Virus record (IMG/VR): IMGVR_UViG_3300025840_003224
Location: 1-22,373 of that record
Origin: a virus
Direction: 5' to 3' (one strand)
DNA: 22,373 nt
Shown here: positions 5,830 to 22,373 of the stretch, piece after piece
Numbering within the stretch: the first letter of the stretch is position 1
Layout: every line of letters starts with the position of its first letter
The notes under the pieces: generated by a model
Database searches by the model: none
Told to the model about the DNA's origin: nothing
What the model saw: the letters and a program-made list of their open reading frames with translations, nothing else
Position numbers and translations under genes: made by a program

Positions 5830-5837
5830 TATTTATT
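5830..5837 (-). promoter_or_regulatory. late promoter box AATAAATA
   Basis: AATAAATA on the minus strand, overlapping the 3' end of the B12-binding radical SAM gene. The predicted start near 5824 gives a leader of about 31 bases ending in AAGGAG before the ATG at 5793. Confidence 0.65.
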
Positions 5838-7689
5838 TGTCAAGACTTATTTTATTAAGATGCCAGCCTCTTCGTCTTCCAAAAAACAACATATCTAAAT
5901 GTTCCTCTTTTTCGTCCAAGTAGTCTCCGTATCTATCAGAAATAATTAAATTTGCGGGAAAAAGGTTGCTTTTGACTTCAACATGGACAGGTTTATAGAT
6001 ATATGATCCAAATTGTTTAATTTGTAAATTTGATATTTTTACATAATCATTTAAAATATCTTGTGTTGTAAATTGTTCAGAAAATTCTTTTACAAGATTT
6101 ATGTAATAAGATTCCAAATTATTAGATTGTATCATTGGCATAACAGAATGGAAAAATTTCCAACCCTCTACAAAGATACCGTCTATTTTAGTTTCCATAT
6201 ATCCTGATTTTTTCCAATCTTGTAATCCTTTTTTCATTTGTTTAAGCCAAGATTTTAAATTAGAATCTTTATCAATAATAAAGTCGTATAATTCTTTATA
6301 AAACTCTAAATAAGATTTTCCTTGTTTTTCATAAAGGTATGTTGATATTATATTTGAAATACCAAACATATGAAACCCTAAAATAAATGCTGTAAAAACT
6401 GCAACATCTTCCATTTCTTTTTCAGAAATTGTATTTGTGCTTTTAATAACTTCTATGGACTCAGATATTTTATGTTGTTTATCATATTCAAAATTTTCAT
6501 TTTGTACTCCATAAAAGAAATCATATCCTTTAAATGTCTTTAAATCATATTCTTGTATTTGTGTGACATACATAGGTGAGTTTATAAGTAATTGTAAGAA
6601 AAATACATCTAATGTTTCAATTTTATGTATTAAAATATCTTCTATAGTATTAAGCCATGTGTTTACAGTTTCACCTGGCATTCCTAAAATTAATTCTGTT
6701 AATGCTGGTACATTTTTATCTCTAGCAGATTGTATAATATCTTCTATAGAATTAATTTTCATATTTTTACGTTTAATATTTTCTAAAACTTCATCTGTTG
6801 TTGTTTGTAAACTTAGTGTTATTCCTGTTTGTATATTTACATCTATAAATCTTTTTACAATTTCCAATACTGTATCATTGCTATTCTTTGCATAACTAAC
6901 ACTTATACCTTTAGGATATCCTGATTCTTTATTTGTTTTTACAATCATATCAGTAATCATTAAATCTCTGTCTTTGAAGATCCCAAAATTACTAGACGTA
7001 AGAGCAAGATAAGGAAGTTTATTTTTTGCGACCCATTCAAGATCTGCAAGTATTCTTTCATCATACAATTTATACATTTTACTTGCTGTTGCACTACCCC
7101 AATCGCAAAATGTACAACTATAAGGACATCCTCTATCAGTTTCTAATGTTGGTACCCATTCTATATCTGGGTATTGGTGTAAGAGATCATCAAACAATCC
7201 TAGTGTATAAGGACTAGGTAAGTTTAAATCCTTTATCCTCTCGTACTCATATACTTGCTCTAAGGGCTTCTTTTCTAAATATGTATTCAGTATCTGTAAT
7301 ACTGCTAATTCTCCTTCTCCGATAACTATAGAATCTATATATGAATTATCTTTTAAAAAATTAGGATTTCTGTGTGGTAGCTCAGGGCCACCTAGGATTA
7401 TTTTAATATTTGGATATGTTTCTTTTAGAATTTTACTTAGTGCGAGACAATAATTTTTATTCCAAATATATAAACTTATAAAAACTATGTGTGTATTTTT
7501 ACATCTATCCACTACATCTTGTAATGTTTCACGCCTAAATACCCAATTATCTACTTGATAATTTTCTTGTATTTGAGGATGTTGTATTAGATAACTCCAT
7601 AAAGCACCAACACTATACGGAAGATAATAACTGTTAAGATGTTTAGGACCAGTCTGAAAATTAGGTTGAACTAATGTTACATTGAACAT
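5833..7689 (-). CDS. B12-binding domain radical SAM protein
   Basis: Predicted iron-sulfur enzyme using S-adenosylmethionine, probably with cobalamin. Residues 1-140 form a B12-binding-type Rossmann domain: LVQPNF start, ILGGPELPHRNP near 98-109, and the characteristic VIGEGE at 122-127. The radical SAM core follows, with the cluster motif CPYSCTFC (Cys188, Cys192, Cys195) preceded by TDRG. It then has LILGMPGET near residue 336 and a long C-terminal region without obvious motifs. Members of this class do methylations on unreactive carbon or phosphorus, or ring rearrangements; the substrate here is unknown. It is the last gene of the island's first minus-strand unit. Its ATG overlaps the epimerase stop by one base (TAATG). 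It is very AT-rich. Confidence 0.85.
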   Translation of the reverse strand: MFNVTLVQPNFQTGPKHLNSYYLPYSVGALWSYLIQHPQIQENYQVDNWVFRRETLQDVVDRCKNTHIVFISLYIWNKNYCLALSKILKETYPNIKIILGGPELPHRNPNFLKDNSYIDSIVIGEGELAVLQILNTYLEKKPLEQVYEYERIKDLNLPSPYTLGLFDDLLHQYPDIEWVPTLETDRGCPYSCTFCDWGSATASKMYKLYDERILADLEWVAKNKLPYLALTSSNFGIFKDRDLMITDMIVKTNKESGYPKGISVSYAKNSNDTVLEIVKRFIDVNIQTGITLSLQTTTDEVLENIKRKNMKINSIEDIIQSARDKNVPALTELILGMPGETVNTWLNTIEDILIHKIETLDVFFLQLLINSPMYVTQIQEYDLKTFKGYDFFYGVQNENFEYDKQHKISESIEVIKSTNTISEKEMEDVAVFTAFILGFHMFGISNIISTYLYEKQGKSYLEFYKELYDFIIDKDSNLKSWLKQMKKGLQDWKKSGYMETKIDGIFVEGWKFFHSVMPMIQSNNLESYYINLVKEFSEQFTTQDILNDYVKISNLQIKQFGSYIYKPVHVEVKSNLFPANLIISDRYGDYLDEKEEHLDMLFFGRRRGWHLNKISLDK

Positions 7690-8645
7690 TATTTTCCCTT
7701 AGAAAATCTTCTATCTTGATTATATGGTATATTATTTTCTAGAACATCCTTCCAAACTGCAATAGTTCTATCTAAACCTTTGCTTAATTCTACTTTAGGA
7801 ACCCATCCTAGTCTGCTTGTAATTTTATAGTTAGTACTGTTTAATAAATAAATTTCACCTGGACGAGGAGGTTTTGTATTCCAATTTACATGGCCGTCCC
7901 AGCCTAGTTTATTTGCAATAAGTTTTACATAGTCTTTTATTTTAATTGCATTGTCAGGACCTATACAAAATATTTCTCCAGCACATTCATCTGGATGTGT
8001 GATAACTGTTTCCCATGCATCTAATAAATCATCTATATAGATAAAGTTTCTGTATGGTTCTCCATATCCTAAATTTATCTCTTTAGGATTTTTAAGCATT
8101 TGAGTAATTATTTGTTCAGTAACAAAGAAATCATTATCCTTTCTGCCGTATGCATTGGTTTGCCTTATAGCAGTAAAAGGTAGTCCATAACTTCTGTGGG
8201 CATATTCTAAATACTTTTCACAGCCATATTTTGCAACGGCATAGGGGGCATTTGGATTAGGTGGTGTCGCTTCGTTAAATGCAATAATACCTTCCTCTTT
8301 GCCATCTCTAATTAAATCACTAATAGGTTGCCAGCCATATACTTCCATTGTACTTGCAAACACAAAGTTTTTTAAATTAGGTAATGTTGCGGCAATTTCA
8401 ATGAGATTTACTGTGCCTACATAATTTACTTCACTAAAAGTAATTTGCTCATAAAAACTATCTTGTACTTCTGTTCTAGCCGCCAAATGTACAATTATTT
8501 CAGGGTCAAACTGTTTAATTTGAAATCCTACTTTAGCATGGTCTCTTAAATCTTCTTTCAAAAATTCTAGTTCATGTTTGTCTTTTAATCTTTGGACCAT
8601 GTGTTGGCCTATAAAACCGTCTGCTCCTGTTATGAATATTCTCAT
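7689..8645 (-). CDS. NAD-dependent epimerase/dehydratase (extended SDR, nucleotide-sugar type)
   Basis: Cytoplasmic short-chain dehydrogenase/reductase that probably acts on a nucleotide sugar. The Rossmann motif GADGFIG (residues 7-13) binds the dinucleotide. The catalytic set is complete: Ser98/Thr99 in ASTMEVYG, and Tyr135 and Lys139 in YAVAK. Typical extended-SDR landmarks follow: HLAARTEVQDS, AYGR, NFIYIDD, and a C-terminal RPGEIYLLN segment. The length (318) is normal for UDP/GDP-sugar epimerases and 4,6-dehydratases. Which reaction it performs cannot be decided. Its ATG overlaps the stop of the sulfotransferase-like gene (ATGA), with AGGA at a suitable distance, so translation is coupled. 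Confidence 0.88.
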   Translation of the reverse strand: MRIFITGADGFIGQHMVQRLKDKHELEFLKEDLRDHAKVGFQIKQFDPEIIVHLAARTEVQDSFYEQITFSEVNYVGTVNLIEIAATLPNLKNFVFASTMEVYGWQPISDLIRDGKEEGIIAFNEATPPNPNAPYAVAKYGCEKYLEYAHRSYGLPFTAIRQTNAYGRKDNDFFVTEQIITQMLKNPKEINLGYGEPYRNFIYIDDLLDAWETVITHPDECAGEIFCIGPDNAIKIKDYVKLIANKLGWDGHVNWNTKPPRPGEIYLLNSTNYKITSRLGWVPKVELSKGLDRTIAVWKDVLENNIPYNQDRRFSKGK

Positions 8646-9274
8646 GTGTGTTCCTGTATTTTTTTAAATTTGCTATCTATATTTATAAGATCATATGTAA
8701 ACTTTTTCTCAAAAAGATAACTTTTAACAAAAGGCTTTTGATCATAGTCTTCTAAACAACTAATCTTTCCTGGATATTTTTTACATAGATCTATAATGTT
8801 TAAGTATCTATTTTGTATTTTTTTGGACATTTCTGTAAATTCTAACAGTGATATTTCTTTATCATAGGGTTCTCTATCTGAAGAATACTGCTTTGTTTTA
8901 TTTGCAATTATAGTACTATAAATTTGTGATGTAATATCTTTTCTATAATGATATATAATTTTATCAGCACATTGTAAATATTTTTCTACTAATAATTCGT
9001 CTTTTGTTTGATTAGGTATAATTCTACATACACTATTATTTAATTTATTCCAGGTATTGAAAATATAATTGTTTTTTAATTTTGTATTAAGATTGCTTAT
9101 ATCTACATTAAAATTGTTTTCAAATCTTTTATCAAATACGTTTGTACTGTGATTTAGTATTTCGCCAAAAGAATATAATTTGTTTTCTTTTGCTAATTTT
9201 AAATTTAAAAAGGTGGAACCTGTCCTAGTAAGAGTTACAATTACAGTTTTATTAGAAGACACCTTTTTCTGCAA
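8642..9274 (-). CDS. P-loop sulfotransferase-like protein
   Basis: Putative cytoplasmic sulfotransferase that would transfer sulfate from PAPS to a small molecule or glycan. The N-terminal beta strand and PAPS 5'-phosphosulfate loop read VIVTLTRTGSTFL, with Thr16-Thr21 as the loop. A second motif, YHYRKDITSQIYS (Arg111, Ser120), fits the 3'-phosphate-binding element (Arg, then Ser seven to nine residues on). The rest is divergent and Lys/Asn-rich, and at 210 residues it is small for the family, so the assignment rests on these two motifs. The start is uncertain: a TTG at 9274 or a GTG at 9262, both inside the end of the preceding oxygenase gene. It is one of the most AT-rich genes in the window. 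Confidence 0.62.
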   Translation of the reverse strand: MQKKVSSNKTVIVTLTRTGSTFLNLKLAKENKLYSFGEILNHSTNVFDKRFENNFNVDISNLNTKLKNNYIFNTWNKLNNSVCRIIPNQTKDELLVEKYLQCADKIIYHYRKDITSQIYSTIIANKTKQYSSDREPYDKEISLLEFTEMSKKIQNRYLNIIDLCKKYPGKISCLEDYDQKPFVKSYLFEKKFTYDLINIDSKFKKIQEHT

Positions 9275-9794
9275 ATCCTGTAACTTGTAATGTATATCTA
9301 TTTTGATATCCTAAATTAGCGACATGATGCTCTGCATTAGGTTTTATTACTGTAAAATCACCTTTTTTATAATCTATCCAACATTCGTTTTCCATTTCAA
9401 AATAATGCCCCATTAATCTATCCTGTAAAAATAAATTTATTCTTACAGGCTCCAATCCTTTTACATTTAATTTTTCCTGTTTTACACGTTCTTTTATTTT
9501 AAAAAGTGTATCAGTATGAGGTGCTATAAATCTACCTGGCTTGATACAATTTACAGTTGCTACACTATATTTTAAGACATCATCAAATAGATGCTTTACC
9601 TGTTGTACCCAATAATCGCAATCGCCTTCAAATACTTGATGAACCCAGGGAGCATCATGAGGATAATCAGGAACTGCTACGCCAATTCTATCCCAAAAAC
9701 CAGCACTATAAACTGTATTAGTATGTTCAGTAAATTTTATTCTATAAATCATTTCATCTGTTACAAATGAAATATCTTTATGTCCTTTAAACAT
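9252..9794 (-). CDS. Fe(II)/2-oxoglutarate oxygenase, aspartyl/asparaginyl hydroxylase-like (copy 1)
   Basis: Predicted double-stranded beta-helix oxygenase. The iron ligands are His93-x-Asp95 in APHTDT and a distal His156 or His157 in AEHHVANLG. Arg166 (YQNRYTLQV) is in the right place to bind the 2-oxoglutarate carboxylate. The segment preceding HxD is CIKPGRFI, typical of the family. It is 180 residues, essentially the bare catalytic domain. It shares the same order of motifs with the next gene upstream (9787-10281), so the two look like tandem paralogues. The genes overlap by eight bases. The substrate could be a free small molecule, a peptide or a glycan precursor; the neighbours favour a small-molecule pathway. 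Confidence 0.78.
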   Translation of the reverse strand: MFKGHKDISFVTDEMIYRIKFTEHTNTVYSAGFWDRIGVAVPDYPHDAPWVHQVFEGDCDYWVQQVKHLFDDVLKYSVATVNCIKPGRFIAPHTDTLFKIKERVKQEKLNVKGLEPVRINLFLQDRLMGHYFEMENECWIDYKKGDFTVIKPNAEHHVANLGYQNRYTLQVTGFAEKGVF

Positions 9795-10281
9795 TCTTAA
9801 GTACCGTTATTTGTGCTGAATAAAAAGGCTCCTCTCCCATATTACCTGCTATATGCCAATCATCTATACCAAACTTTACCCATTCTCCTGCTTTCCATTT
9901 AACAAAAGGTTGTTCGTGTACTTCATAATAGTGTCCACGTTTCCAGTCTTCTAAAAATATTAAGTAACGATAACTTTCACCTTCGCCATGCTCTTGTTTT
10001 AATTTAAAATGTTTATCAACATGATGTGGAATTGTTTGTCCAGGTTCTATATTAATAACACTAACAACATGATGGTCAAAGTCTTGTGGTATTTTTTTGG
10101 CTAAGTCATGCACCCATTGTGGTGAGGTTTCAAACATCTGCCATATACTGCTATTATGTTTTGTATAATATTTTTCTACAGCAGGTGTTTGTTGATAACA
10201 TTGGAAGTAATCTTCAAAGTTCAATTGACTCATCTGATTATGTGTGATACCGAAATTATCTATTTTACCATATTTAATCAC
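9787..10281 (-). CDS. Fe(II)/2-oxoglutarate oxygenase-like protein (copy 2)
   Basis: Tandem paralogue of the downstream gene. Shared blocks are IEPGQTIPHHVDKHFKLK against IKPGRFIAPHTDTLFKIK, RGHYYEVHEQ against MGHYFEMENE, and WHIAGNMG against HHVANLG. The iron ligands appear intact: His87-x-Asp89 and His143. Unlike copy 1, no Arg follows the distal His in the expected strand (the sequence is FYSAQITVL), so cosubstrate binding may differ or the protein may have a non-standard role. The start is a GTG overlapping the amidinotransferase stop codon, with only a weak AGAG ribosome binding site. An internal ATG at residue 17 is the alternative. Confidence 0.72.
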   Translation of the reverse strand: MIKYGKIDNFGITHNQMSQLNFEDYFQCYQQTPAVEKYYTKHNSSIWQMFETSPQWVHDLAKKIPQDFDHHVVSVINIEPGQTIPHHVDKHFKLKQEHGEGESYRYLIFLEDWKRGHYYEVHEQPFVKWKAGEWVKFGIDDWHIAGNMGEEPFYSAQITVLKNV

Positions 10282-11335
10282 AATAACTCTCTAAAGTTCC
10301 TCTACGTCTAAGATCTAAAGTAGCACAATGTATACCGCCAGAGAGCGTCATAGAGTGACGGAACTGTACAGGTACACTATCTATACCGTACTTGTCAAGT
10401 TCCCTCATCAGAGGCTCTTGTGCTGAGTCTAATACTACTGTATTCTCATCTACACTTAATAAGTTCATACCAATGTATGGTGAACAGGGTGGCATGTAAC
10501 CTTCATCTGCTAATTTACTTCCTTGTACAACACAGTCATCAAACCAAATCTTATCCCACTTTGCAAACATTTCAGGGCAGTTATCTGGTGTTACTCTTGA
10601 ACTGTTCATTAGAACTAGTCCAGGTCTTAGTGGAACAATAGTGCTATCAAAATGTGCAAAACTATAGAGTTCACTATAATGCATTTTGTAACCCATTGGC
10701 TCTAATAATCTTTTTAGCCATTTATAACCTTTCATGTTTCCTGAGTTACTGACTTGATATAATAAGTCTCTACCAACTCTAACAATATTAGGTGCATCAA
10801 AACATATCTCATGATTCAATAATGTTGGTTTGTTTTCAATGTCTTCAAAAGTGTACATGTCGTCATGTAGTTTTGGCTTAGGTGCAGAAAACCATAATGC
10901 ACCATCTTCAAATGCTTCGTACATTATGTCTTCATATAATCTTGTTTCAAAATATCTTGCTCTTACAGGAGTAGGTGTTTCAATAAGCATATCACCTAAT
11001 GGCAGTATCAAGTCTCTGGGACACCAACTGTACCAGCCTTTTGTGTTCCATCCTTGACCTATATCGTAATTCTTTTTGTCCCAATCTATAATTTTAGGAC
11101 GGTGTACAATAACACCTAAATCTTCTAATGCTTTTGCAAGTCCGTCTGCATCTTCATTGGCTTCATCAATTACCCATTGTGGGTAAGTGCCTTCTAATTT
11201 TTCTACGTCTTCTTTTGGGAAATTTGCATAACTGAAACTTCTTGCTGAAATATCAGTTGCTATTCTGCTGTGGTGGGCATGTCCAACGATGATCTCTTCC
11301 AATGGGTCCCAATCGTTGTGTGAATTAACTATCAT
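10274..11335 (-). CDS. amidinotransferase (glycine / inosamine-phosphate amidinotransferase family)
   Basis: Predicted to move an amidino group from arginine to an amine acceptor, making a guanidino compound plus ornithine. The guanidine-modifying fold is complete: it opens with NSHNDWDPLEEIIVG, and the catalytic triad is visible as Asp190 (VGRDLLYQ), His228 (FAHFDST) and Cys337 (SGGIHCATLDLRR). The length of 353 matches bacterial members such as StrB-type enzymes. The acceptor (glycine, an aminocyclitol, an amino sugar or other) cannot be read from sequence. It is the first gene of the island's long minus-strand unit, with a late box at 11371-11378 and TAGGAG ahead of its ATG. By eye it is less AT-rich than its neighbours, which suggests a separate origin. 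Confidence 0.9.
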   Translation of the reverse strand: MIVNSHNDWDPLEEIIVGHAHHSRIATDISARSFSYANFPKEDVEKLEGTYPQWVIDEANEDADGLAKALEDLGVIVHRPKIIDWDKKNYDIGQGWNTKGWYSWCPRDLILPLGDMLIETPTPVRARYFETRLYEDIMYEAFEDGALWFSAPKPKLHDDMYTFEDIENKPTLLNHEICFDAPNIVRVGRDLLYQVSNSGNMKGYKWLKRLLEPMGYKMHYSELYSFAHFDSTIVPLRPGLVLMNSSRVTPDNCPEMFAKWDKIWFDDCVVQGSKLADEGYMPPCSPYIGMNLLSVDENTVVLDSAQEPLMRELDKYGIDSVPVQFRHSMTLSGGIHCATLDLRRRGTLESYCD

Positions 11336-11370
11336 TTGTGTGTCTCCTAAGTATAGTTATAATATGCTAC

Positions 11371-11378
11371 TATTTATT
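11371..11378 (-). promoter_or_regulatory. late promoter box AATAAATA for the amidinotransferase unit
   Basis: AATAAATA on the minus strand, followed after about 35 bases by the amidinotransferase ATG, with TAGGAG in the predicted 30-base leader. The box shares one base with the TAA stop of the PLP-enzyme-like gene (11378-11380). It probably drives the six genes down to 5833. Confidence 0.65.
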
Positions 11379-12256
11379 TAACAATCACCTAACCAGTCTG
11401 AAATACAGACTCTATAGTTACCAGTTACGCCTCTGTTAAATTCTGAATGCCTGATATCATCTCCTAATCCAAATATCATTGTATCAGTCCAAACTAAATC
11501 TTCGTTTTGACAAATTGTTTCATATAAGTCTCTGTATTTTTCCCAATTATAATCAGGAGAAAAGTTACGCATATATTCTACACCTAATGCCATACTATAA
11601 TTATTTTGCATTTTTACTTCATTGAGCATACTAACACCATCATCTACATAATCTTTTGTAAATCGTACGCCTACTCTGTGATTTTCCAGAGTGAAAAATG
11701 GCTTACTTAAACTACATGTAACTTCTTTAATAGCAGGAAAATCATTTAAATCTATATGTACATGTTTTGCTATTCCCCAATATGCTAAATCCAAACATAC
11801 AGGTATGTCCATAACATTACAGACTTGCATTATGTGTTCAAAGTCAGGATGTATGCAACCAAAGTCGCTGAAAGGCGCACTGATTAATAATGCATGTAGA
11901 CCTGGACCTTGTAATATACTTTCCAAATGATGTGGGGAATGTAAGTTTTGAAATTGTACATGTTTACCTAGACAGGCATGATATTGAAAATCTCCATTTA
12001 AAACAATTATTTCTCTATCCTTACTATGTCTTAAAATAAACTGATCAAACGTTTGACTAGTCCCTTGAGTATAATCTACATGAGTAAATTTTTCTAAACC
12101 TCTTAAAGATTTGGTATTTGAATAGTTTATCCATTCTCTCCAGACTTTTTCATATTCCAAAAGTGTTACATTCTTCAAATCATTACTATCTAAGTGCCAA
12201 TGAAAATCCTGTATCTCTTTATTCCTAACCGGTCTTGCTCCTCTAACTGCAGGCAT
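11378..12256 (-). CDS. short fold-type I PLP enzyme-like protein (aminotransferase-like)
   Basis: Probably an aminotransferase relative. CLDLAYWG (Asp156, Tyr159) fits the Asp that contacts the PLP pyridine nitrogen, and CSLSKPF (Lys185) fits the Schiff-base lysine. HRVGVRF follows, where class I/II aminotransferases have a conserved Arg-Gly block. YTQGTSQTF near residue 62 may contact the cofactor phosphate. At 292 residues it is about 100 shorter than usual, and the segment after the lysine is brief, so the small C-terminal domain is reduced. It could be an active minimal enzyme or a catalytically altered descendant. AAGGAG seven bases before the ATG supports the start. It overlaps the glycosyltransferase gene by 14 bases, so it is co-transcribed with it. 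Confidence 0.62.
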   Translation of the reverse strand: MPAVRGARPVRNKEIQDFHWHLDSNDLKNVTLLEYEKVWREWINYSNTKSLRGLEKFTHVDYTQGTSQTFDQFILRHSKDREIIVLNGDFQYHACLGKHVQFQNLHSPHHLESILQGPGLHALLISAPFSDFGCIHPDFEHIMQVCNVMDIPVCLDLAYWGIAKHVHIDLNDFPAIKEVTCSLSKPFFTLENHRVGVRFTKDYVDDGVSMLNEVKMQNNYSMALGVEYMRNFSPDYNWEKYRDLYETICQNEDLVWTDTMIFGLGDDIRHSEFNRGVTGNYRVCISDWLGDC

Positions 12257-13628
12257 CGTTCAACTCCTTAAAAAAGTTTTCATTACTTTTTCTTCTAAAT
12301 TTTCCTTCAACTAAATGGTTATAATTGAAATTAACACTCTCTTTTGTTTGTTCTAATAGTTCTTGATACTTTGCAGGACTTAGATTTCTTATATATTCAA
12401 ATACCGTAAAGAAACCTTTTACTCTTTCATATAATGTATCTGCTTCATTAAAATTTACAGGCCAGCAGTCATCATATGTTTTAAAATCTATATTTTTTAA
12501 TTCCTCATATATACCTTTACATCCAAAAGTTATATAAGGTTTTTTAAATACCATTGGTATAAATTGCTTTTCATCTACATATCCATATCCATATGGTTCT
12601 CCGCCAGGGGAAATTACTATATCACAATCTTCATATAACCAATGGCCTGGTATACCTCTATCATCTATATTTTTCATATCTATTATATGAGGACGACTCA
12701 TAAGATTATTCATCATTTGTTTTATAAAACTGTCTTCTAATTTTTCTTTGTGTAATAATTGATTTAAACTTGTTGATATTAATTCTATATGATATGGGTA
12801 TTCATCTTTTGTATTTTGATTATTTGCAATTTTCATAAGATCAGTTGGTCTTAAACTATAAAATCTTCCGTATGTAATATCTTCTAAACCTATTGCACTA
12901 TTTTCTAACATTGTAGAAAACAATAGTCTATGAGCTCTGCAATTTCTTAATGTACAAACAAATTTATTAGGCACAATATTATATAGTGACTTTTCTCTAT
13001 TACTCATTGATCTATCTATTTCCATATGTACATTATTAAACTCTTCGTTCTCAGATAAAAATGTCATATAATGAACTCTATCAAAATACCAAAGTTTATG
13101 TATTTTATGCACGTTAGGTACTCTACTTGTATGTGTTGTGAAGTGCCCAAAATAATCTTCTGTTTCCCCTGAACCACTTAGAACAATATTAATATGAGGA
13201 TTACTTGCCCCAAGTTCTGCAAAATATATATTTGCATCATAGAAATATGGCTCAGTGCTAGAATAAAATAAAAATGTTAAATTAGGTAAATTTAAAGAAA
13301 GTATTTGTTGTACAATTTTATCTATTTCAATACCAAAATGTGATAACTCATAATACTTACGATTTTCTATAGTAATAGGAAAACTTTGTGTATCTATAGG
13401 CACAAGAGTTATTTCGTCTTTATTACATTTACTTACGTCACCATTATTAATAATATTAATATCAAATAACTCGTCAAACGGATTAAAGTTTTGTTCTAAC
13501 TCTATTTGTGTTAAAACATGTAATGGTAAAGGCTCACGACCAGTCCAGCCTAATGACTTGTGCTGTTCTAGTGCTTCTTTACTAAATTGAAACCCGTCTT
13601 CTAAATAAAATATATTAATATTTTTCAT
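12243..13628 (-). CDS. putative glycosyltransferase
   Basis: Probably a GT-B-like glycosyltransferase, judged mainly from its second half. FVCTLRNCRAHRLLFSTML resembles the start of the donor domain in phage and bacterial transferases. The segment around 355-395 (GGEPYGYGYVDEKQFIPMVF, then KKPYITFG, then YEELKNIDFKTY) has the EK-with-following-hydrophobics and distal Gly pattern seen in fucosyltransferase/exostosin-like families. The N-terminal 200 residues are not recognised. No signal peptide or membrane span is seen, so it is cytoplasmic. The ATG lies nine bases after the encoded CCA of tRNA-Ser, with AGGA straddling that junction as ribosome binding site. It is transcribed behind the tRNA from the late box at 13736-13743. 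Confidence 0.55.
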   Translation of the reverse strand: MKNINIFYLEDGFQFSKEALEQHKSLGWTGREPLPLHVLTQIELEQNFNPFDELFDINIINNGDVSKCNKDEITLVPIDTQSFPITIENRKYYELSHFGIEIDKIVQQILSLNLPNLTFLFYSSTEPYFYDANIYFAELGASNPHINIVLSGSGETEDYFGHFTTHTSRVPNVHKIHKLWYFDRVHYMTFLSENEEFNNVHMEIDRSMSNREKSLYNIVPNKFVCTLRNCRAHRLLFSTMLENSAIGLEDITYGRFYSLRPTDLMKIANNQNTKDEYPYHIELISTSLNQLLHKEKLEDSFIKQMMNNLMSRPHIIDMKNIDDRGIPGHWLYEDCDIVISPGGEPYGYGYVDEKQFIPMVFKKPYITFGCKGIYEELKNIDFKTYDDCWPVNFNEADTLYERVKGFFTVFEYIRNLSPAKYQELLEQTKESVNFNYNHLVEGKFRRKSNENFFKELNDACS

Positions 13629-13637
13629 AATTTTTCC

Positions 13638-13727
13638 TGGCGGAGAGTGAGGGATTCGAACCCTCGAACCAGTTACCCGGTTAACACCTTAGCAGGGTGC
13701 CGCTTTCGACCACTCAGCCAACTCTCC
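13638..13727 (-). tRNA. tRNA-Ser (anticodon GCU), CCA encoded
   Basis: A complete type II tRNA. The acceptor stem is GGAGAGT with ACTCTCC, discriminator G, CCA encoded at 13638-13640. The anticodon stem GCACC/GGTGT holds loop CTGCTAA with anticodon GCU at 13691-13693. There is a long serine-type variable arm (AACCGG paired with CTGGTT) and a T arm GAGGG-TTCGAAT-CCCTC. It reads AGU and AGC codons; AGU is used often in the neighbouring virion genes. Its promoter box ends eight bases before the 5' end, predicting a primary transcript with only about three extra 5' bases. Confidence 0.97.
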
Positions 13728-14879: not shown

Positions 14880-15941
14880 ATGCCTAAATTAAGTTTATGG
14901 AACCCAGTCAAAACAAATGACTACAATTTCACTGATAGAATTGTCGGAGAGCACCTTTATGCCGGTGGTACCGGTGTACATATACACAAATACTTAGGGG
15001 TACATACAACTCCAGACGAAGGAGACCCTACAAGACCTAGTAGTGCGGCAAATGATACAGAGGTTTTTATACAAGACTTACTATTTTTAGAAAATAGAGA
15101 TAGAAAATATGATAAAGATATTTACGAACTACGTGGTCAATATAATATAGGCGATAATGATGCCTTTGACCTAACACAATTTGGTATGTTTTTAGCCAAC
15201 GATACGTTGTTTATGAATTTCCATATAGAAAGCATGGTAGAAGCAGTTGGCAGAAAATTAATGGCAGGTGATGTATTAGAATTACCTCATTTAAGAGACG
15301 ACTTGTTACTAGGTAGTGATGAAGCAATAAACAGATATTATGTAGTTACTGATGCTAGTAGACCTGCAGAAGGGTATGACCCACGTTGGTGGCCACATCT
15401 TTGGAGAGTAAAATTAGGTCCTATAACAGATTCACAAGAGTACAGAGATATACTTGGTACTGGTGAAGAGGAAGAAGATTTAAGAAATCTAATTAGTACA
15501 TACGCAAATGATATTAATATAAATGATAAACTTTTAGAACAAGCAGAAAAAGATGTACCTTTTGATCCACAATATAGAAATACAACACATTTATATTTTG
15601 ATGAAACAGTTCCTGACAAACCAAGTATAGACTTTGGGGGAGCAGATGGCACACCTGTAAACGGATTAAGTTTAGTTGGCAGTGGAGCAACGTTCCCAAT
15701 AAGTGGAACGACTGACGGTGATTACTTCTTGAGGACAGACTTTAGTCCTAATAGACTATTTAAAAAATCTGGTACACGTTGGTTAAATGTTGGTACAGAC
15801 GGCAGAAAAGCCTGGTCGGCGGCAAATAGAATACTTGCTACATTTATTAATAACGATAATATTACAAATGAAAGTGACGGCACTAAAGCAAATGAAAAAA
15901 CAAATTTAAGTAAGGTTATTAAGCCTAGGACAGATAACTAA
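14880..15941 (+). CDS. 14: neck protein (gp14-like)
   Basis: Head-tail neck protein of the T4 type. The order of blocks follows T4 gp14: a FTDRIVGEHLYAGGTGVHIH region matching the T4 VAESIQMRGV segment, then DLTQFGMFLANDTLFMNFHI (T4: SNFGMQVQDEVTLSIN). Next are KLMAGDVLELPHLRDDL (T4: EPKEGDLIYFPMDNSLF) and the Trp/Pro-rich RWWPHLWRVKLGPITDSQEY. At 353 residues it is longer than T4 gp14 (256). The extra C-terminal part (about residues 260-305) contains a GDYFLRTD module with a following TRWLNVG strand, similar to modules in gp18 and gp15 here. The gene begins a plus-strand unit (gp14, gp15, Nudix) with predicted leaderless start. Confidence 0.8.
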   Translation: MPKLSLWNPVKTNDYNFTDRIVGEHLYAGGTGVHIHKYLGVHTTPDEGDPTRPSSAANDTEVFIQDLLFLENRDRKYDKDIYELRGQYNIGDNDAFDLTQFGMFLANDTLFMNFHIESMVEAVGRKLMAGDVLELPHLRDDLLLGSDEAINRYYVVTDASRPAEGYDPRWWPHLWRVKLGPITDSQEYRDILGTGEEEEDLRNLISTYANDININDKLLEQAEKDVPFDPQYRNTTHLYFDETVPDKPSIDFGGADGTPVNGLSLVGSGATFPISGTTDGDYFLRTDFSPNRLFKKSGTRWLNVGTDGRKAWSAANRILATFINNDNITNESDGTKANEKTNLSKVIKPRTDN

Positions 15942-17293
15942 TGGCGGGTAAAAATTTAGATTACTGGTACGACGAACAGATAAAACGTTATCTACTTCAA
16001 GTTATTAGAATATTTTCTAACTTCAAAGTAAGAGAATATACACAAGATGGAGTAAAGTATAATCGTGTTCCAGCAAGATATGGTGATGCTAGTAGAATGG
16101 TAGCAAATATATTGCGTAATAATTCAGAAAATGTTATTAATAGTGCTCCTTTTATTAGTGTTACAATACAAAGTATACAACCAGCAAGAGATAGAATAGC
16201 AGAACCTTTTTTTGTGGATACAAATCAAATAGCAGAAAGAGAATTTAATAAAGAAACAGGAACATACTCTTCTGAACAAGGAAACTTATACTCAACACAA
16301 AGATATATGCCTGTTCCATATAATTTAACAGTTAATGTTGATATTTGGACTACTAATACTGATACTAAATTACAAGTATTAGAACAAATATTTGTTTTAT
16401 TTAATCCAAGCATACAGTTACAGTCTAATAGTAACCCTTTAGATTGGACCAGTGTATTTGAAGTTGAACTTACAGATATTGCTTGGAGTAGTAGAGGTAT
16501 CCCAGCAGGTGTAGATGAAAATTTAGATATATCAACTTTAACATTTGCGTTACCTATTTGGATAAGTCCTCCAGCAAAAGTAAAAAGACAAACTATTATA
16601 CAAGAAATTATAAATAATGTTCATTCAATATCAGATATTTCTGAACTAGGGTATAGCCAAGATTATGCAGATTTCTTTGGTTCAATAGAAGATACATTTG
16701 AAATTGTTACAACACCAGGAGATTATAAAGTTCAAGTTATAGGTTCTTCTGCTACACTAGTAGAACAAGATGGTACCGAAGTAAAATGGTCCAGTATAAT
16801 AGAACAACTTGGAGAAATAAGATCAACAAGTTTACTTAAATTAAATATTAGCGGAGACTCAAATAATTTATTAAACTTGGTATATGGCACCGTAACTAAA
16901 AATCCAACAAGTGATACATCATTAATTTTTAATTTAGATACAGACACACTACCTACAAATACACTTTCTGCTGTGGATAAAATTATAGATCCTAGAGCGA
17001 ATTACCCTGGAGACGGTACCCTAGCGGCCGCTACTAACGGGCAAAGATACTTAATTACAGAAGAAATTACAAAATCAGGATATACCAATTGGGACGTAGA
17101 TGCCGGAGAAAACGATATTATACAATACAACGGTTCTGCTTGGACTGTAGTATTTGATGCTAGTGCCAGTGGTAGTGATATACATTATATAAACAATACG
17201 TTTACAACCAAACAATATAAATGGACAGGCAAAGCCTGGATAAGTAGTTATGAAGGAGAATACAATCCAGGATTTTGGAGACTTAGTTTATAA
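15941..17293 (+). CDS. 15: tail terminator / sheath stabiliser (gp15-like)
   Basis: Protein that caps the tail tube and sheath and joins the tail to the head. The N-terminus matches the T4 gp15 pattern: YDEQIKRYLLQVIRIFSNFKV (T4 NSSFRRYATLMGDLFSNIQI), then VPARYGD, then the APFISVTIQ strand. Later blocks are MPVPYNLTVNVDIWTTNTD with LEQIFVLFNP (T4 SPIKMIYELSIFTRYEDD, EQILPYFQP) and TFALPIWISPP near 200. At 450 residues it is much longer than T4 gp15 (272). The C-terminal addition (about 230-450) includes an NGQRYLI...YNGSAWTVVFD module and KQYKWTGKAWISS, akin to the inserted modules of gp18 and gp14. The start overlaps the gp14 stop (TAATG), so translation is coupled. Confidence 0.85.
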   Translation: MAGKNLDYWYDEQIKRYLLQVIRIFSNFKVREYTQDGVKYNRVPARYGDASRMVANILRNNSENVINSAPFISVTIQSIQPARDRIAEPFFVDTNQIAEREFNKETGTYSSEQGNLYSTQRYMPVPYNLTVNVDIWTTNTDTKLQVLEQIFVLFNPSIQLQSNSNPLDWTSVFEVELTDIAWSSRGIPAGVDENLDISTLTFALPIWISPPAKVKRQTIIQEIINNVHSISDISELGYSQDYADFFGSIEDTFEIVTTPGDYKVQVIGSSATLVEQDGTEVKWSSIIEQLGEIRSTSLLKLNISGDSNNLLNLVYGTVTKNPTSDTSLIFNLDTDTLPTNTLSAVDKIIDPRANYPGDGTLAAATNGQRYLITEEITKSGYTNWDVDAGENDIIQYNGSAWTVVFDASASGSDIHYINNTFTTKQYKWTGKAWISSYEGEYNPGFWRLSL

Positions 17294-18676: not shown

Positions 18677-18684
18677 TATTTATC
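18677..18684 (-). promoter_or_regulatory. late promoter box GATAAATA, five bases before ATG
   Basis: GATAAATA on the minus strand followed by ATAAT and the ATG at 18671. It overlaps the adenylate cyclase stop codon (TGA, 18683-18685). There is no Shine-Dalgarno. Confidence 0.7.
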
Positions 18685-20752
18685 ACTTGGTTGTTTTACG
18701 CATAACTCCGTCCCAATCGCCTTTAGGCATTGGTTGTTTAATACGTTCTGCATATAATTCTGTTAAAACAGGATTCCAATTATGTTGATTCATTATTTCT
18801 ATTTGATGTGCAACTGTGCTCCATTCTCTGTTTTGATATGCATCTACCATTCTATTAATGACCCTTGCTTCTTTATGGTCTTTTAAAATAGTATAAATTG
18901 TGACCGGTGCAGTTTGTCCTTTTACAGCAATTTTATCTAACATAACTAAATTTTCAGGTAATTTTATTTGTTTTAGTGTATGCTCAGTAAACATAAAGAA
19001 CACTCCATATTCTTTTGTTTGTGCTTCTAATCTAGCCGCTAAGTTTACACTATCGCCTAATACAGTATAATCGAATCGTTGATTACTTCCCATGTTACCT
19101 ACAACTGCATCACCTGTGTTTATGCCTATACCAACACCTAATTCCATTAAGCCATCTGCTTTTAATTCTTTATTTAACTTTTCTAACTCTACTTCCATTT
19201 CCTGTGCTGTTTCAACCGCCAACTGAGCGTGGTTTTCTATATCAAGTGGTGCTCCCCAAATAGCCATTAGAGCATCACCTATATATTTGTCTATTGTTCC
19301 TTCTTTTTGCATAACAAGATCTGTCATAGGCGTCATATATCTGTTTATAAGTTTACCCAAACCTTGTGGATCAGTTTTAAACTGTTCTGAAATAGGGGTG
19401 AACCCTCTGATATCTGAAAACAAATAAGTCATTGTTTTTGTATCGCCACCTAATTTAAGCAAACTTGGATCTTTTTGTAATTTTTTAACCATTGCCGGAG
19501 CAAGGTAATGTTCGAATTGTTTCTTTATTTGCTCACGTAATTTAAACTGCTTGTAAAAGTTATTAAATGCGGCCTGTGTAAATATTAAAAATCCAGCAAG
19601 TACAGGAAATGTTGCATCTAATAATACCAAACTACTTGTATATTTGTGTATACTATAATATGCTATACCACCTAATACTGCTAAAGCCATAGGTGCTGTT
19701 AAAAGCAAAGGTAATCTATATACTGCTAAAGCAACAAGAACCATAGTCAGTAACCCTACTAGAAGCTCTATGATAGCACTCAATTGACTTCTTGTTATAT
19801 TACTACCATCTATAAAGTTCTGTAGCATATGAGCTTGTATATGTTGAGGATATAAGTTTCCTCTAGGTGTAGGTACAGGATTTGCAATACCCTCTGCTGT
19901 AACACCTACTATTACAAACTTACCTGCTAAATCAGGTATGCTTTCTGCACCTTCATATTCTATTTCAGTAAATGTGTTATTAAAACGTATATATGCAGTT
20001 CCGTTTGGTTGTGTTACTATGGGGTCAAAGGGCGGAACTGCAACTTCCTGTATTCCTATCTCACTTGTTTTAATTATGTAACTGGGTTTACCTGTTTTTA
20101 CTCTTAACATTTCCACAGCAAAAGAGGGATATATTTTATCTTCCACAGTTATGGCAAGTGGATATGTTCTTGTTTGATTATCTGGTTGTGGTGCAGAAGC
20201 ATTAACACCTTTACCATTACTTGTAACTTCTAGCATTGGTACGTTAGTAATTAAATTTGGCCAGGTAAGTAAATAGTCTTTTGCAGGAACTGGACCTATC
20301 GTGCCTGTGCCTATATGTGGGCCTGTTGATTTTATACCTTTTACACTTGGTGTTTGGCTCAATACATTGTAGTTTACAGGATTCTTTCTGGCTCCAGGAA
20401 CATTCATTACGTTTTGATTCATCATACTTGCAAAACTTTCATCTCCCTGAAATCTATCTTTTTCAGGAAACATAATTGTCCAACCCAAAACACCACCATT
20501 TTTCATAGCAACGTCTACTACCATTTGAGCATAGTATTGTCTAGGAAAAGGATATTGTCCGTATTTTGCTAAACTTTTTTCGCCAATATTAATTAGTACA
20601 ACATCATCACTTTGTACTATTTCATCTAATTGTTGGTAACTGTCAAAAACTTGACCACGTAAACTTTGTAAAGGCGTAGGGTCTACTACCCTTAGTGCGA
20701 GTAATAGTACAATTGATACTGCTACTGCGTACCCGCTATATAACCATTTCAT
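18683..20752 (-). CDS. membrane-bound CHASE2-domain class III adenylate cyclase
   Basis: Predicted inner-membrane enzyme making cAMP from ATP. A first span (about 7-22) leads into an extracytoplasmic CHASE2 sensor domain (about 25-325; VVLINIGEKSLAKYGQYPFPR, later GKFVIVGVTAEGI and YPQHIQAHMLQNFI). Three spans follow (about 325-345, 347-366, 374-393), then a short helical linker and the cyclase domain. Catalytic residues are all present: metal-binding Asp447 (FSDIRGF) and Asp493 (DKYIGDALMAIWG), ATP-selecting Lys489 and Thr563, and transition-state Asn570 and Arg574 (VNLAARLE). The length of 689 matches bacterial CHASE2 cyclases, so nothing is missing. The ATG is five bases after a late box with no Shine-Dalgarno. 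It is a complete signalling receptor of bacterial type inside a phage late region, which is very unusual. Confidence 0.93.
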   Translation of the reverse strand: MKWLYSGYAVAVSIVLLLALRVVDPTPLQSLRGQVFDSYQQLDEIVQSDDVVLINIGEKSLAKYGQYPFPRQYYAQMVVDVAMKNGGVLGWTIMFPEKDRFQGDESFASMMNQNVMNVPGARKNPVNYNVLSQTPSVKGIKSTGPHIGTGTIGPVPAKDYLLTWPNLITNVPMLEVTSNGKGVNASAPQPDNQTRTYPLAITVEDKIYPSFAVEMLRVKTGKPSYIIKTSEIGIQEVAVPPFDPIVTQPNGTAYIRFNNTFTEIEYEGAESIPDLAGKFVIVGVTAEGIANPVPTPRGNLYPQHIQAHMLQNFIDGSNITRSQLSAIIELLVGLLTMVLVALAVYRLPLLLTAPMALAVLGGIAYYSIHKYTSSLVLLDATFPVLAGFLIFTQAAFNNFYKQFKLREQIKKQFEHYLAPAMVKKLQKDPSLLKLGGDTKTMTYLFSDIRGFTPISEQFKTDPQGLGKLINRYMTPMTDLVMQKEGTIDKYIGDALMAIWGAPLDIENHAQLAVETAQEMEVELEKLNKELKADGLMELGVGIGINTGDAVVGNMGSNQRFDYTVLGDSVNLAARLEAQTKEYGVFFMFTEHTLKQIKLPENLVMLDKIAVKGQTAPVTIYTILKDHKEARVINRMVDAYQNREWSTVAHQIEIMNQHNWNPVLTELYAERIKQPMPKGDWDGVMRKTTK

Positions 20753-20757
20753 ATCGA

Positions 20758-20765
20758 TATTTATC
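20758..20765 (-). promoter_or_regulatory. late promoter box GATAAATA, five bases before the cyclase ATG
   Basis: GATAAATA on the minus strand followed by TCGAT and ATG at 20752. The box overlaps the 3' end of the secreted-protein gene. There is no Shine-Dalgarno; a leaderless cyclase mRNA is predicted. Confidence 0.75.
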
Positions 20766-21312
20766 GTATTTTATTGCATTCCTGTTTGGCTTTTTCAAGT
20801 AATCTAAAGTTATTTGCAACAACAATTGAATATAACATATTAGTATTATTTAATTCGTCTGGTGTTACCTGTGTCCAATAATCATCATATAATAATCCAG
20901 GAAGGATTAAAAAACTTTTGGTTGCTATAATTCTAAAATCGCTTGGACGTTCTGTGTATAGTGGATTGATTTCTTTTACACAATCATATTTTAATGCTCG
21001 TGATGTCGAGTAAGCATCTAATACTTGAAATGTCCAAAATGCTAGCCATTGTTTGTTAGTTGCACGTGGTACCATATCAAATACAGGATAGTTTTTGCTC
21101 TCTAGGTTTTTGCAAAGTTCAGGATTGTTATCACAAAAATATGGATCTAGTGGGGGATTATAAGTAAGGTCTAATACTCTACCTTCCGGTAAGTATGCTG
21201 GACTAATAACAATTTCCTCTGCTGTTAAAAACAGAGGAAATGCTAATGTTATGATTAAAAGTAATCTACTCACAGTCTTCAGGTTTCTTGGAGCAATATT
21301 CTTTAATTGCAT
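20761..21312 (-). CDS. secreted or membrane-associated protein of unknown function
   Basis: The N-terminus carries a signal peptide (basic start, hydrophobic core SRLLLIITLAFPLFL, cleavage likely after LTA). The mature part has two Cys-containing segments (FCDNNPELC, later DCVKEINPLY) and a hydrophobic stretch FWTFQVLDAYSTSRAL. The Asp-Ala-x-x-Thr plus ExNPLY pattern recalls small membrane proteins of the DUF5658 sort, but that is a weak resemblance. FLILPGLLYDDYW follows. The start is uncertain: the ATG at 21312 overlaps the preceding reading frame by 47 bases. A GTG at 21273 overlaps it by only eight and still leaves a complete signal peptide. It precedes the adenylate cyclase, whose sensor domain would face the same compartment. 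Confidence 0.6.
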   Translation of the reverse strand: MQLKNIAPRNLKTVSRLLLIITLAFPLFLTAEEIVISPAYLPEGRVLDLTYNPPLDPYFCDNNPELCKNLESKNYPVFDMVPRATNKQWLAFWTFQVLDAYSTSRALKYDCVKEINPLYTERPSDFRIIATKSFLILPGLLYDDYWTQVTPDELNNTNMLYSIVVANNFRLLEKAKQECNKIR

Positions 21313-21481
21313 CTTCTAAAAGTTTATCTTTCAATAACTCTTTTAGAACTTTATTTTGCAATATAAGTTCTTTAATATCCTCTTCAGTTACCTGCTCACT
21401 CTCTTTCGAGGGTGAGTCTATGCCTTTTTGTTTTTCGTTCTGTTTTAAAAACTTAAAAGGTTTAAAGAATGAGCTAGTTAC
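21266..21481 (-). CDS. 71-codon reading frame without a start, likely -1 frameshift extension of the lipoprotein
   Basis: An open frame begins exactly at the end of the upstream lipoprotein gene and has no ATG or GTG. Only two internal TTG codons could start it. It encodes a basic segment (FFKPFKFLKQNEKQKG), an acidic linker and a probable coiled coil (EEDIKELILQNKVLKELLKD), ending EYCSKKPEDCE. Its stop overlaps a possible GTG start of the next gene (GTGAGTAG), as expected of real coding sequence. The upstream gene ends in A_AAA_AAG directly before its TAA. A -1 slip there reads straight into this frame, giving a 177-residue product. The alternatives are a miscounted A-run in the assembly or a TTG-started small gene. 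Confidence 0.5.
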   Translation of the reverse strand, partial: VTSSFFKPFKFLKQNEKQKGIDSPSKESEQVTEEDIKELILQNKVLKELLKDKLLEDAIKEYCSKKPEDCE

Positions 21482-21798
21482 TTTTTTGGCTCTTCTTTAG
21501 GTTCTTCTTGTAAAGCATCAGTTTGATTGTTGACTTCATCAGCAACAACTTGTACTAAACCAGCACCGGTATCAGCCGCAGTTTGGACTAATCCAACACC
21601 TACTTCTGCTGTAGTTTGAACTACACTACCGACATCATTTGCAACTGAACTAACAATACCACTTGCTGTACCTGTTACAGTATCAAGTGTGTCTGTTGCA
21701 AGTTTTTGTCCGCCATCGATTACTGTACCAACTGTAGCACAACCTTGAGCGAAAACAACAAAGAATATACCTAAGAACGCATTTTTAAATTTGTTCAT
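21478..21798 (-). CDS. small lipoprotein with 11-residue repeats
   Basis: A 106-residue predicted lipoprotein. The signal peptide is MNKFKNAFLGIFFVVFAQG with Cys20 as likely lipidation site; the lipobox (FAQGC) is slightly non-canonical. The mature part is low in complexity and contains a repeat of about 11 residues (VGSVVQTTAE, VGVGLVQTAAD, TGAGLVQVVAD), suggesting a long amphipathic helix. It ends in an acidic Glu-Pro-Lys tail (EEPKEEPKK). It has AAGGAG before the ATG and a late box 54 bases upstream. Lipoproteins in phage late regions are sometimes spanin components or superinfection factors; nothing here proves either. The final codons form a frameshift-type slippery heptamer. Confidence 0.7.
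   Translation of the reverse strand: MNKFKNAFLGIFFVVFAQGCATVGTVIDGGQKLATDTLDTVTGTASGIVSSVANDVGSVVQTTAEVGVGLVQTAADTGAGLVQVVADEVNNQTDALQEEPKEEPKK
21481..21487 (-). promoter_or_regulatory. candidate -1 ribosomal frameshift site A_AAA_AAG
   Basis: On the minus strand the lipoprotein gene ends CC[A AAA AAG] TAA. The heptamer is in the zero frame required for tandem -1 slippage and is followed at once by the stop codon. The -1 frame stays open for 71 codons. A hairpin with a GAAA loop (21395-21416) lies downstream but 64 bases away, further than usual stimulators. Confidence 0.5.
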
Positions 21799-21866: not shown

Positions 21867-22181
21867 TTAGAATCCTAATCTATCGTTTGAAGCATTTCCA
21901 AACATACTATGCTCATCGTGTAACATTAACTGCCACGTTAATACATCTTTTGTGATTGGATTATCTGCTTCACTGATTTGTTTTATCAATCTCAATCTAG
22001 TGCCAACTTCTACTTCATATGTTATTTCACACCATAAAAATAACAGATAAAAAATTGCTGGAGGAACAACAATAAACATTAGAACATGTGGAAATAGCCA
22101 ACCTAATGCTACTAGGTGAACTCCTAAGATAGCCATAGCATAGTTTCTCAAACTGTTTGTGTGCTTAGTAACGTGGCTCAT
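21867..22181 (-). CDS. small membrane protein of unknown function
   Basis: A protein of about 104 residues. One or two spans cover AMAILGVHLVALGWLFPHVL and MFIVVPPAIFYLLFLW, followed by a soluble C-terminus (VEVGTRLRLIKQISEAD, ending ASNDRLGF). I place the start at 22181 because GGAG lies three bases before that ATG. An in-frame ATG at 22202 has no ribosome binding site. The start overlaps the stop of the upstream membrane protein by 17 bases, so the two are co-transcribed. No family is recognised. Confidence 0.6.
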   Translation of the reverse strand: MSHVTKHTNSLRNYAMAILGVHLVALGWLFPHVLMFIVVPPAIFYLLFLWCEITYEVEVGTRLRLIKQISEADNPITKDVLTWQLMLHDEHSMFGNASNDRLGF

Positions 22182-22373
22182 AATCTCCAAACATGTCTTC
22201 ATAATCGTTTACTAATACAAACGGTCTAATGTGCGGATCGTACCCTGTAGGTTCAAACAAATAGATAGGTGTATACGGCCAATCTATGCCTTCACGTTGT
22301 GCATAATTATATACCATATAATATGCTATGAATAACCACAACGAGGGCACAACTAATAAAAATAATACGAAAA
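22165..22373 (-). CDS. membrane protein, truncated by the window edge
   Basis: The frame is open to the right edge of the window. A GTG at 22350 could start it. But the seven complete codons before that GTG are strongly hydrophobic (FVLFLLV) and extend the span LWLFIAYYMVYNY into a full transmembrane helix, so the true start is probably outside the window. The C-terminus is short and soluble (REGIDWPYTPIYLF, ending EDMFGDYEPRY). Function unknown. The stop overlaps the next gene's start by 17 bases. Confidence 0.5.
   Translation of the reverse strand, partial: FVLFLLVVPSLWLFIAYYMVYNYAQREGIDWPYTPIYLFEPTGYDPHIRPFVLVNDYEDMFGDYEPRY

Follow-up and report, generated by a model that had tools for sequence, protein, structure and literature searches.

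A lipoprotein gene of a marine phage very probably undergoes programmed -1 ribosomal frameshifting. The gene lies on the minus strand of a 22,373-nucleotide stretch of viral DNA (IMG/VR record IMGVR_UViG_3300025840_003224, denoted as the window). At the level of sequence, comparison with homologous loci demonstrates a slippery heptamer, a 6-nt spacer, a covarying 11-bp helix (P1), and a tail that is selected as a protein and has no shared start codon. In the proposed mechanism, most ribosomes would terminate at the TAA codon and release a short lipoprotein, while some would pause at P1, where two Lys-tRNAs would slip back by one base. The shifted ribosomes would read 71 additional codons, and the resulting lipoprotein of 177 aa would carry a basic stretch followed by a long helix and would end in C-x6-C. 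Translation would then terminate at a TAG whose bases overlap the GTG start of the next exported gene, so that frameshifting probably also feeds this gene through re-initiation. In a sister group, with a spacer shorter by one base and an altered slippery site, the shift would most likely be -2.

The lipoprotein gene and its overlapping tail frame

The open reading frame running from 21798 to 21478 encodes 106 aa, and its 3' end reads GAG CCA AAA AAG TAA. By eye, its product displays the n-region, the hydrophobic stretch, and the lipobox with a cysteine by which bacterial-type lipoproteins are recognized. The lipobox-like FFVVFAQGC lies in the signal sequence, and its Cys20 (codon at 21741–21739) is invariant among 31 aligned homologues. 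As the original prediction had stated, the gene ends on A_AAA_AAG in the correct phase with TAA immediately following (21487–21478). The -1 frame, which begins with GTA (21481) and stops at TAG (21268–21266), was also correctly predicted in coordinates, phase, and size: it remains open for 71 codons without an in-frame ATG or GTG, and the fused product would comprise 177 aa (106 + 71). The first possible start codon within it is a TTG at +119 nt, inside the predicted helix. The anticipated overlap between the tail stop and a possible start of the next gene was likewise found, with the GTG at 21273. The features are listed in Table 1.

Table 1. Coordinates in the window of the putative frameshift junction and adjacent genes
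Feature	Position	Strand	Remarks
Zero-frame lipoprotein gene, 106 aa + TAA	21478..21798	(-)	ORF; 31 homologues aligned
Slippery heptamer A_AAA_AAG	21481..21487	(-)	X_XXY_YYZ phase; zero-frame TAA (21478-21480) directly after
-1 frame tail, 71 codons + TAG	21266..21481	(-)	Open; purifying selection
P1 5' arm (GCTCATTCTTT)	21464..21474	(-)	6 nt past heptamer
P1 3' arm (AGAGAGTGAGC)	21394..21404	(-)	11/11 pairs with 5' arm
Predicted long helix, tail residues 33-65	21287..21385	(-)	AlphaFold2, pLDDT mostly 80-89
C-x6-C motif at tail end	21272..21295	(-)	Tyr62 and both Cys invariant in 31 tails
Next gene, exported protein with C-x6-C, sub-threshold DUF5658 match	20761..21273	(-)	GTG start overlaps tail stop by 8 nt
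CHASE2 adenylate/guanylate cyclase, last gene of curli-type cassette	18683..20752	(-)	
Small membrane protein, upstream in same cassette	21867..22202	(-)	

Across 30 distinct -1 sequences, stop codons are absent from the tail frame but number 169 and 270 in the two alternative frames. The pN/pS ratio of the tail is 0.20 between the most similar pairs and 0.44 in the bin of greatest divergence, and these values agree with the earlier description of the -1 frame as protein-like. Differences at the three codon positions number 6632/3551/8836, counted over pairs that are not independent. Tyr62, Cys63, Pro67, and Cys70 are invariant in 31 aligned tails, six of which are weakly matched by PHROG 3128 (best E 2.4e-4). 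AlphaFold2 predicts a single long helix at residues 33–65 of the tail following a disordered start (mean pLDDT 68.8), and the model of the lipoprotein body was unusable (mean pLDDT 47). The make-up originally proposed for the tail therefore held in part: the basic stretch stands, as a predicted disordered region, while the coiled coil is replaced by one predicted helix followed by the C-x6-C motif. Judged by these comparisons, the overlapping tail frame is maintained as a protein without a shared start of its own.

Protein searches of IMG/VR and GTDB genomes yielded 46 close loci including the window, of which 34 are distinct at the DNA level. GTDB contributed one MAG contig (L123, JALRDI010000311.1), with every other contig derived from IMG/VR. 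This contig is labeled as an Ilumatobacteraceae MAG, and since it carries the junction, it is probably phage DNA. L034, which starts within the tail, was left out, and L038 and L041, which possess the heptamer on contigs cut at the lipoprotein, stand outside the 46. The tail is in the -1 frame in 42 loci and in the +1 (equivalent to -2) frame in four (L078, L079, L083, and L088). An in-phase A_AAA_AAG is present in all 30 distinct close -1 sequences; the proposed conservation of the heptamer and the -1 frame in related phages was thus observed. The heptamer is located directly 5' of the stop codon in 29 of the 30, with one codon intervening in L075. The zero-frame stop varies between TAA and TAG across the close relatives, indicating that the heptamer, rather than the stop, is the element being kept. 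The terminal Lys codon is AAG in all 30 sequences, whereas Lys in the lipoprotein bodies is encoded by AAA 147 times and AAG 9 times; hence, the invariant AAG does not reflect codon preference. Two motif scans of viral_contigs retrieved 39 and 4 contigs, each of which had previously been assigned to the family.

A covarying helix downstream of the heptamer

The DNA following the stop is conserved beyond protein need. The Ser codon is TCA in all 33 rows having that codon, and the Arg codon at the 5' arm of P1 is CGC in 21 of 34, with no CGC among the 219 Arg codons of 13 window genes. RNAalifold, applied to 34 sequences, independently predicted one 11-bp helix, which pairs the post-stop bases with a segment close to the ESEQ/EDEQ codons. 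P1 is paired in 99.0% of 308 cells (28 distinct rows), compared with 50–62% when slid. Four pairs are changed on both sides, a number equalled in 1 of 500 shuffles, and the covariation score was reached by none of 500, with further pair types reached by 82 of 500. The changes include C-G to A-U (L075), C-G to U-A (L077 and L086), and U-A to A-U (L080). In a recoding test covering 33 of the 34 sequences (L075, whose 5' arm differs, was left out), the observed 10–11 of 11 pairs compare with means of 6.5–8.2 of 11 after synonymous recoding, and the share of recodings reaching the observed pairing is 0.003–0.083 per sequence.

The heptamer and P1 are separated by 6 nt in every one of the 30 -1 rows and by 5 nt in each of the four -2/+1 rows. 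Both A_AAA_AAG and G_GGA_AAG are described as highly shift-prone in E. coli, with spacers commonly of 5–9 nt (PMC5009743). P1 is accordingly placed, as an 11-bp covarying helix within the 5–9 nt downstream range, to act as a putative stimulator, and its location at the usual stimulator distance lends support to the frameshift interpretation. When the stretches are cut just behind the 3' arm, P1 is part of the lowest-energy fold, or of a fold within 3 kcal/mol of it, in all 34. With longer 3' sequence, several folds favor other pairings, and the lowest-energy fold of the window then does not retain the whole of P1; P1 could therefore compete with local structure. A hairpin inside the 3' arm, with 82.7% of cells paired, one pair changed on both sides, and pair counts not above those of shuffles, may be a competitor of P1. 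Searched with the covariance model R1, the window has a single strong match (E 2.3e-20, with the runner-up at 0.46), as does each of three family contigs; the matches in the phages HTVC008M and Melnitz are weak, with E values no better than 0.06. Rfam over the window returned tRNA only. A GAGC/GCTC pairing across the heptamer, seen by eye, was dropped as it is not conserved. From inspection by eye, an upstream Shine-Dalgarno-like stimulator is not claimed, because the purine stretch also encodes KEEPKEEPKK.

Distant relatives and the sister group

A deeper scan produced 160 candidate relatives, 80 of which are listed, and 36 of those listed are new (the distant loci). A tail in the -1 frame with a C-x6-C end is found in 29 of these 36, 28 recognized by a script pattern and L226, which lacks the Tyr, by eye. 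Their slippery sites are A_AAA_AAG in 22, G_GGA_AAG in six, and GGAAAAG in one. The other seven distant loci listed (L221, L225, L228, L231, L234, L238, and L240) contain neither tail nor heptamer and have a terminator-like hairpin close behind; these tail-less homologues are likely to constitute a comparison group for tail function. L225 and L231, the two tail-less loci read in detail, are positioned downstream of what we take to be a gp32-like gene. The distant stems differ in sequence, as exemplified by CCTTCTTA/TAAGAAGG, CTTCATC/GATGAAG, and CCCCTG/CAGGGG. The best stem 4–9 nt downstream was scored against synonymous recodings for each cluster, and p fell below 0.05 for 12 of the 24. Taken singly, the 10 distant clusters are weak (p 0.013–0.334), with a combined value of 3.7e-4. 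The degenerate GGAAAAG belongs to L227 (IMGVR_UViG_3300023176_003532, about 95–450), in which an ATG overlaps the lipoprotein stop (TAATG). This locus may re-initiate instead, and could represent a natural switch away from frameshifting.

L078, L079, L083, and L088 share GAA_AAG_AAG_TAR together with the same helix P1. These four loci form one clade by tail and sit beside three different kinds of -1 lipoprotein by lipoprotein, which suggests an exchange of the junction-tail module. A -2 shift is a better guess than +1, since a move of two bases backward would let the P-site tRNA-Lys exchange AAG for AAA, while +1 slippage would meet AGA or AGU. Shifting by -2 is known from phage Mu and from arteriviruses; the resemblance lies in the +1 frame needed by the four relatives, the 5-nt spacer, and GAA_AAG_AAG, with the difference that here the choice of -2 over +1 is drawn only from possible tRNA re-pairing. 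According to PMC5009743, -2 shifting operates in phage Mu, and with the HIV cassette a shorter spacer increased -2 relative to -1 shifting, an effect that the 5-nt spacer of these loci fits.

Conserved frameshifting in tailed phages is best known from tail-assembly chaperones. The present gene resembles lambda gpG/gpGT in its predicted short and C-terminally extended products, with the shift near the 3' end of the gene. It differs in encoding a signal-bearing lipoprotein, in having a curli-type cassette or other neighbors with no chaperone similarity found, in the short form ending at or just past the heptamer, and in the presence of a covarying helix. A tail-assembly chaperone identity was rejected because Pfam gave nothing above the cut-off, PHROG gave no more than a weak match to tape measure (E 0.016), and the neighbors are curli-type genes; Pfam likewise lent no support to an entericidin, a glycine-zipper protein, or a spanin lipoprotein. 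The chaperones employ -1, -2, or +1 shifts in different phages (PMC5009743). E. coli dnaX (tau/gamma) uses the same A_AAA_AAG with a downstream hairpin (PMC3711429), but its shifted product is shorter, whereas the product here would be longer. A largely non-subscription literature, including parts of PMC9599517, PMC9004378, PMC7029224, PMC3711429, PMC10885494, and PMC5009743, yielded no description of programmed frameshifting in a lipoprotein gene of a phage. The word "frameshift" is absent from the main texts of the first three, and "lipoprotein" occurs 0 times in the covered part of the last. Among named phages, there was no match for the 177-aa fusion, the window DNA, or three distant lipoproteins.

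Gene neighborhood, alternative explanations, and possible function

In close relatives with enough flanking sequence, the gene order is CsgF, CsgG, curlin-like, FecR, curlin-like, small membrane proteins, the lipoprotein gene, DUF5658-like, and CHASE2 cyclase, with other cargo sometimes inserted between the last two. The CsgF gene is presumed from its position and from resemblance. Pfam matches in the cassettes comprise CsgG (4.5e-46), FecR (1.4e-12), and the curlin repeat (3.4e-8 and 8.8e-12). Among the curlin-like proteins, one in L048 has no Pfam match, and the first in L039 falls below the cut-off. The lipoprotein gene is located within a CsgG/curlin/FecR cluster in L039, L048, L005, L080, and L011. 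Of the distant loci listed, 14 of 36 have at least one cassette gene and 22 have none, so the lipoprotein gene is not bound to curli; some of these 22 adjoin a gene presumed to be gp32-like. Phage curli cassettes are described in PMC9599517, PMC7029224, and PMC9004378, and the type VIII secretion cassettes of pelagiphages share the order CsgF-CsgG-curlin-FecR-curlin-cyclase (PMC9599517). Pelagibacter phage HTVC008M and Methylophilales phage Melnitz have the same cassette without the lipoprotein gene. Among the 34 distinct sequences, 22 have the GTG of the DUF5658-like gene 5 nt ahead of the tail stop, and eight have its start elsewhere near by.

The window represents part of the genome of a large marine myophage. 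A tail sheath (best PHROG 10581, E 9.9e-248), whose best phage relatives are among jumbo phages, and in addition a sheath or sheath-stabilizer-like protein are encoded at 83–2860 and 15941–17293. A tRNA-Ser(GCT) (13638–13727, minus strand) is situated between modules. An apparent cargo block occupies 5833–13628, containing genes presumed to be radical-SAM-like, NAD-dependent epimerase-like, sulfotransferase-like, and amidinotransferase-like.

The tail might instead be a short gene in its own right, read after the lipoprotein stop either through re-initiation or from an unusual start codon, which we consider highly improbable. It is true that the tail starts immediately past the stop, that L227 carries TAATG, and that 20 of the 75 tailed loci listed have an early in-frame start; the positions of these starts differ, however, and no ATG proper to the second frame is shared. 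In the other 55, including the window, ATG, GTG, and TTG are all absent between the upstream stop and +30 nt, and L249–L251 have no in-frame start anywhere before the Cys motif. A separate gene would also leave the in-phase heptamer and the covarying helix at a fixed 6 nt unexplained, and its product would lose the export signal, although its C-x6-C resembles that of co-encoded exported proteins. Transcriptional slippage in the A run preceding the stop is an extremely improbable source of the longer product: the run in the window consists of six A, compared with n > 7 for slippage-prone runs (PMC3711429), the relatives with G_GGA_AAG lack a long run, and an RNA helix at 6 nt is a requirement of a ribosomal shift, not of a polymerase. 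The probability of a sequencing or assembly error, or of a decayed gene, is practically negligible. A-runs are error-prone, and all contigs but one share IMG/VR as their origin; nevertheless, the same junction recurs in 46 close and 29 distant tailed loci that are diverged, separately assembled, and maintained by protein selection, and none of them has a different A count fusing the two frames into one.

The frameshift could also be real with the coupling of the next exported gene as its main purpose and the fused tail as secondary, an unlikely arrangement in our estimate. The GTG 5 nt before the tail stop and the lack, by eye, of a strong ribosome-binding site upstream of that gene speak for it. 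Against it, the tail is under amino-acid selection, distant relatives hold the tail and heptamer next to unrelated genes, and L010, L074, L080, and L087 keep the tail where the DUF5658-like gene is absent, which argues that the tail is selected independently of coupling. Coupling may rather be a second use of the frameshift. The points that count against a programmed -1 shift as a whole are the early in-frame starts, the degenerate heptamer and ATG of L227, the possible competitor of P1, the incomplete P1 in the window fold with longer 3' sequence, and the weakness of single distant stems; the programmed shift remains our preferred explanation.

With regard to function, the gene neighborhood tentatively suggests one possibility, namely an outer-membrane lipoprotein accessory to the curli-type export apparatus, in which the frameshift would fix the ratio of plain to tailed forms, by analogy with ratio setting in lambda G/GT and dnaX. 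Not every distant relative has curli genes beside it. The C-x6-C motif is common to the tail, the next exported protein, and CsgG, where it follows the lipid anchor. The CsgG insert (CxxDFLECxEEP) was found at L039:152–1165, L048:1–954, L170 (reverse; L080), and L171:2116–3150 (L011), that is, in all four cassette CsgG proteins with that end in hand, and it is absent from the CsgG of HTVC008M. This common motif suggests that the tailed form may work at the CsgG pore. A bolder and rather doubtful extension is that the tailed form of an outer-membrane lipoprotein would dock on the phage CsgG through its helix and a C-x6-C disulfide, that the frameshift rate would set the number of gated pores and, by re-initiation, the amount of the next exported protein, and that loss of a spacer base would have switched between -1 and -2 with the helix kept.

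Gene callers would overlook the tail or label it as non-coding. The -1 and -2/+1 versions, which have one helix in common and differ by one spacer base and the slippery site, offer a natural experiment, and tail modules of the second kind occur on three different lipoprotein types. The putative conserved frameshift described here would serve a secreted lipoprotein whose diverged relatives use two canonical heptamers and several stems that look unrelated, and the puzzling curli cassettes of phages would thereby gain a regulated membrane component.
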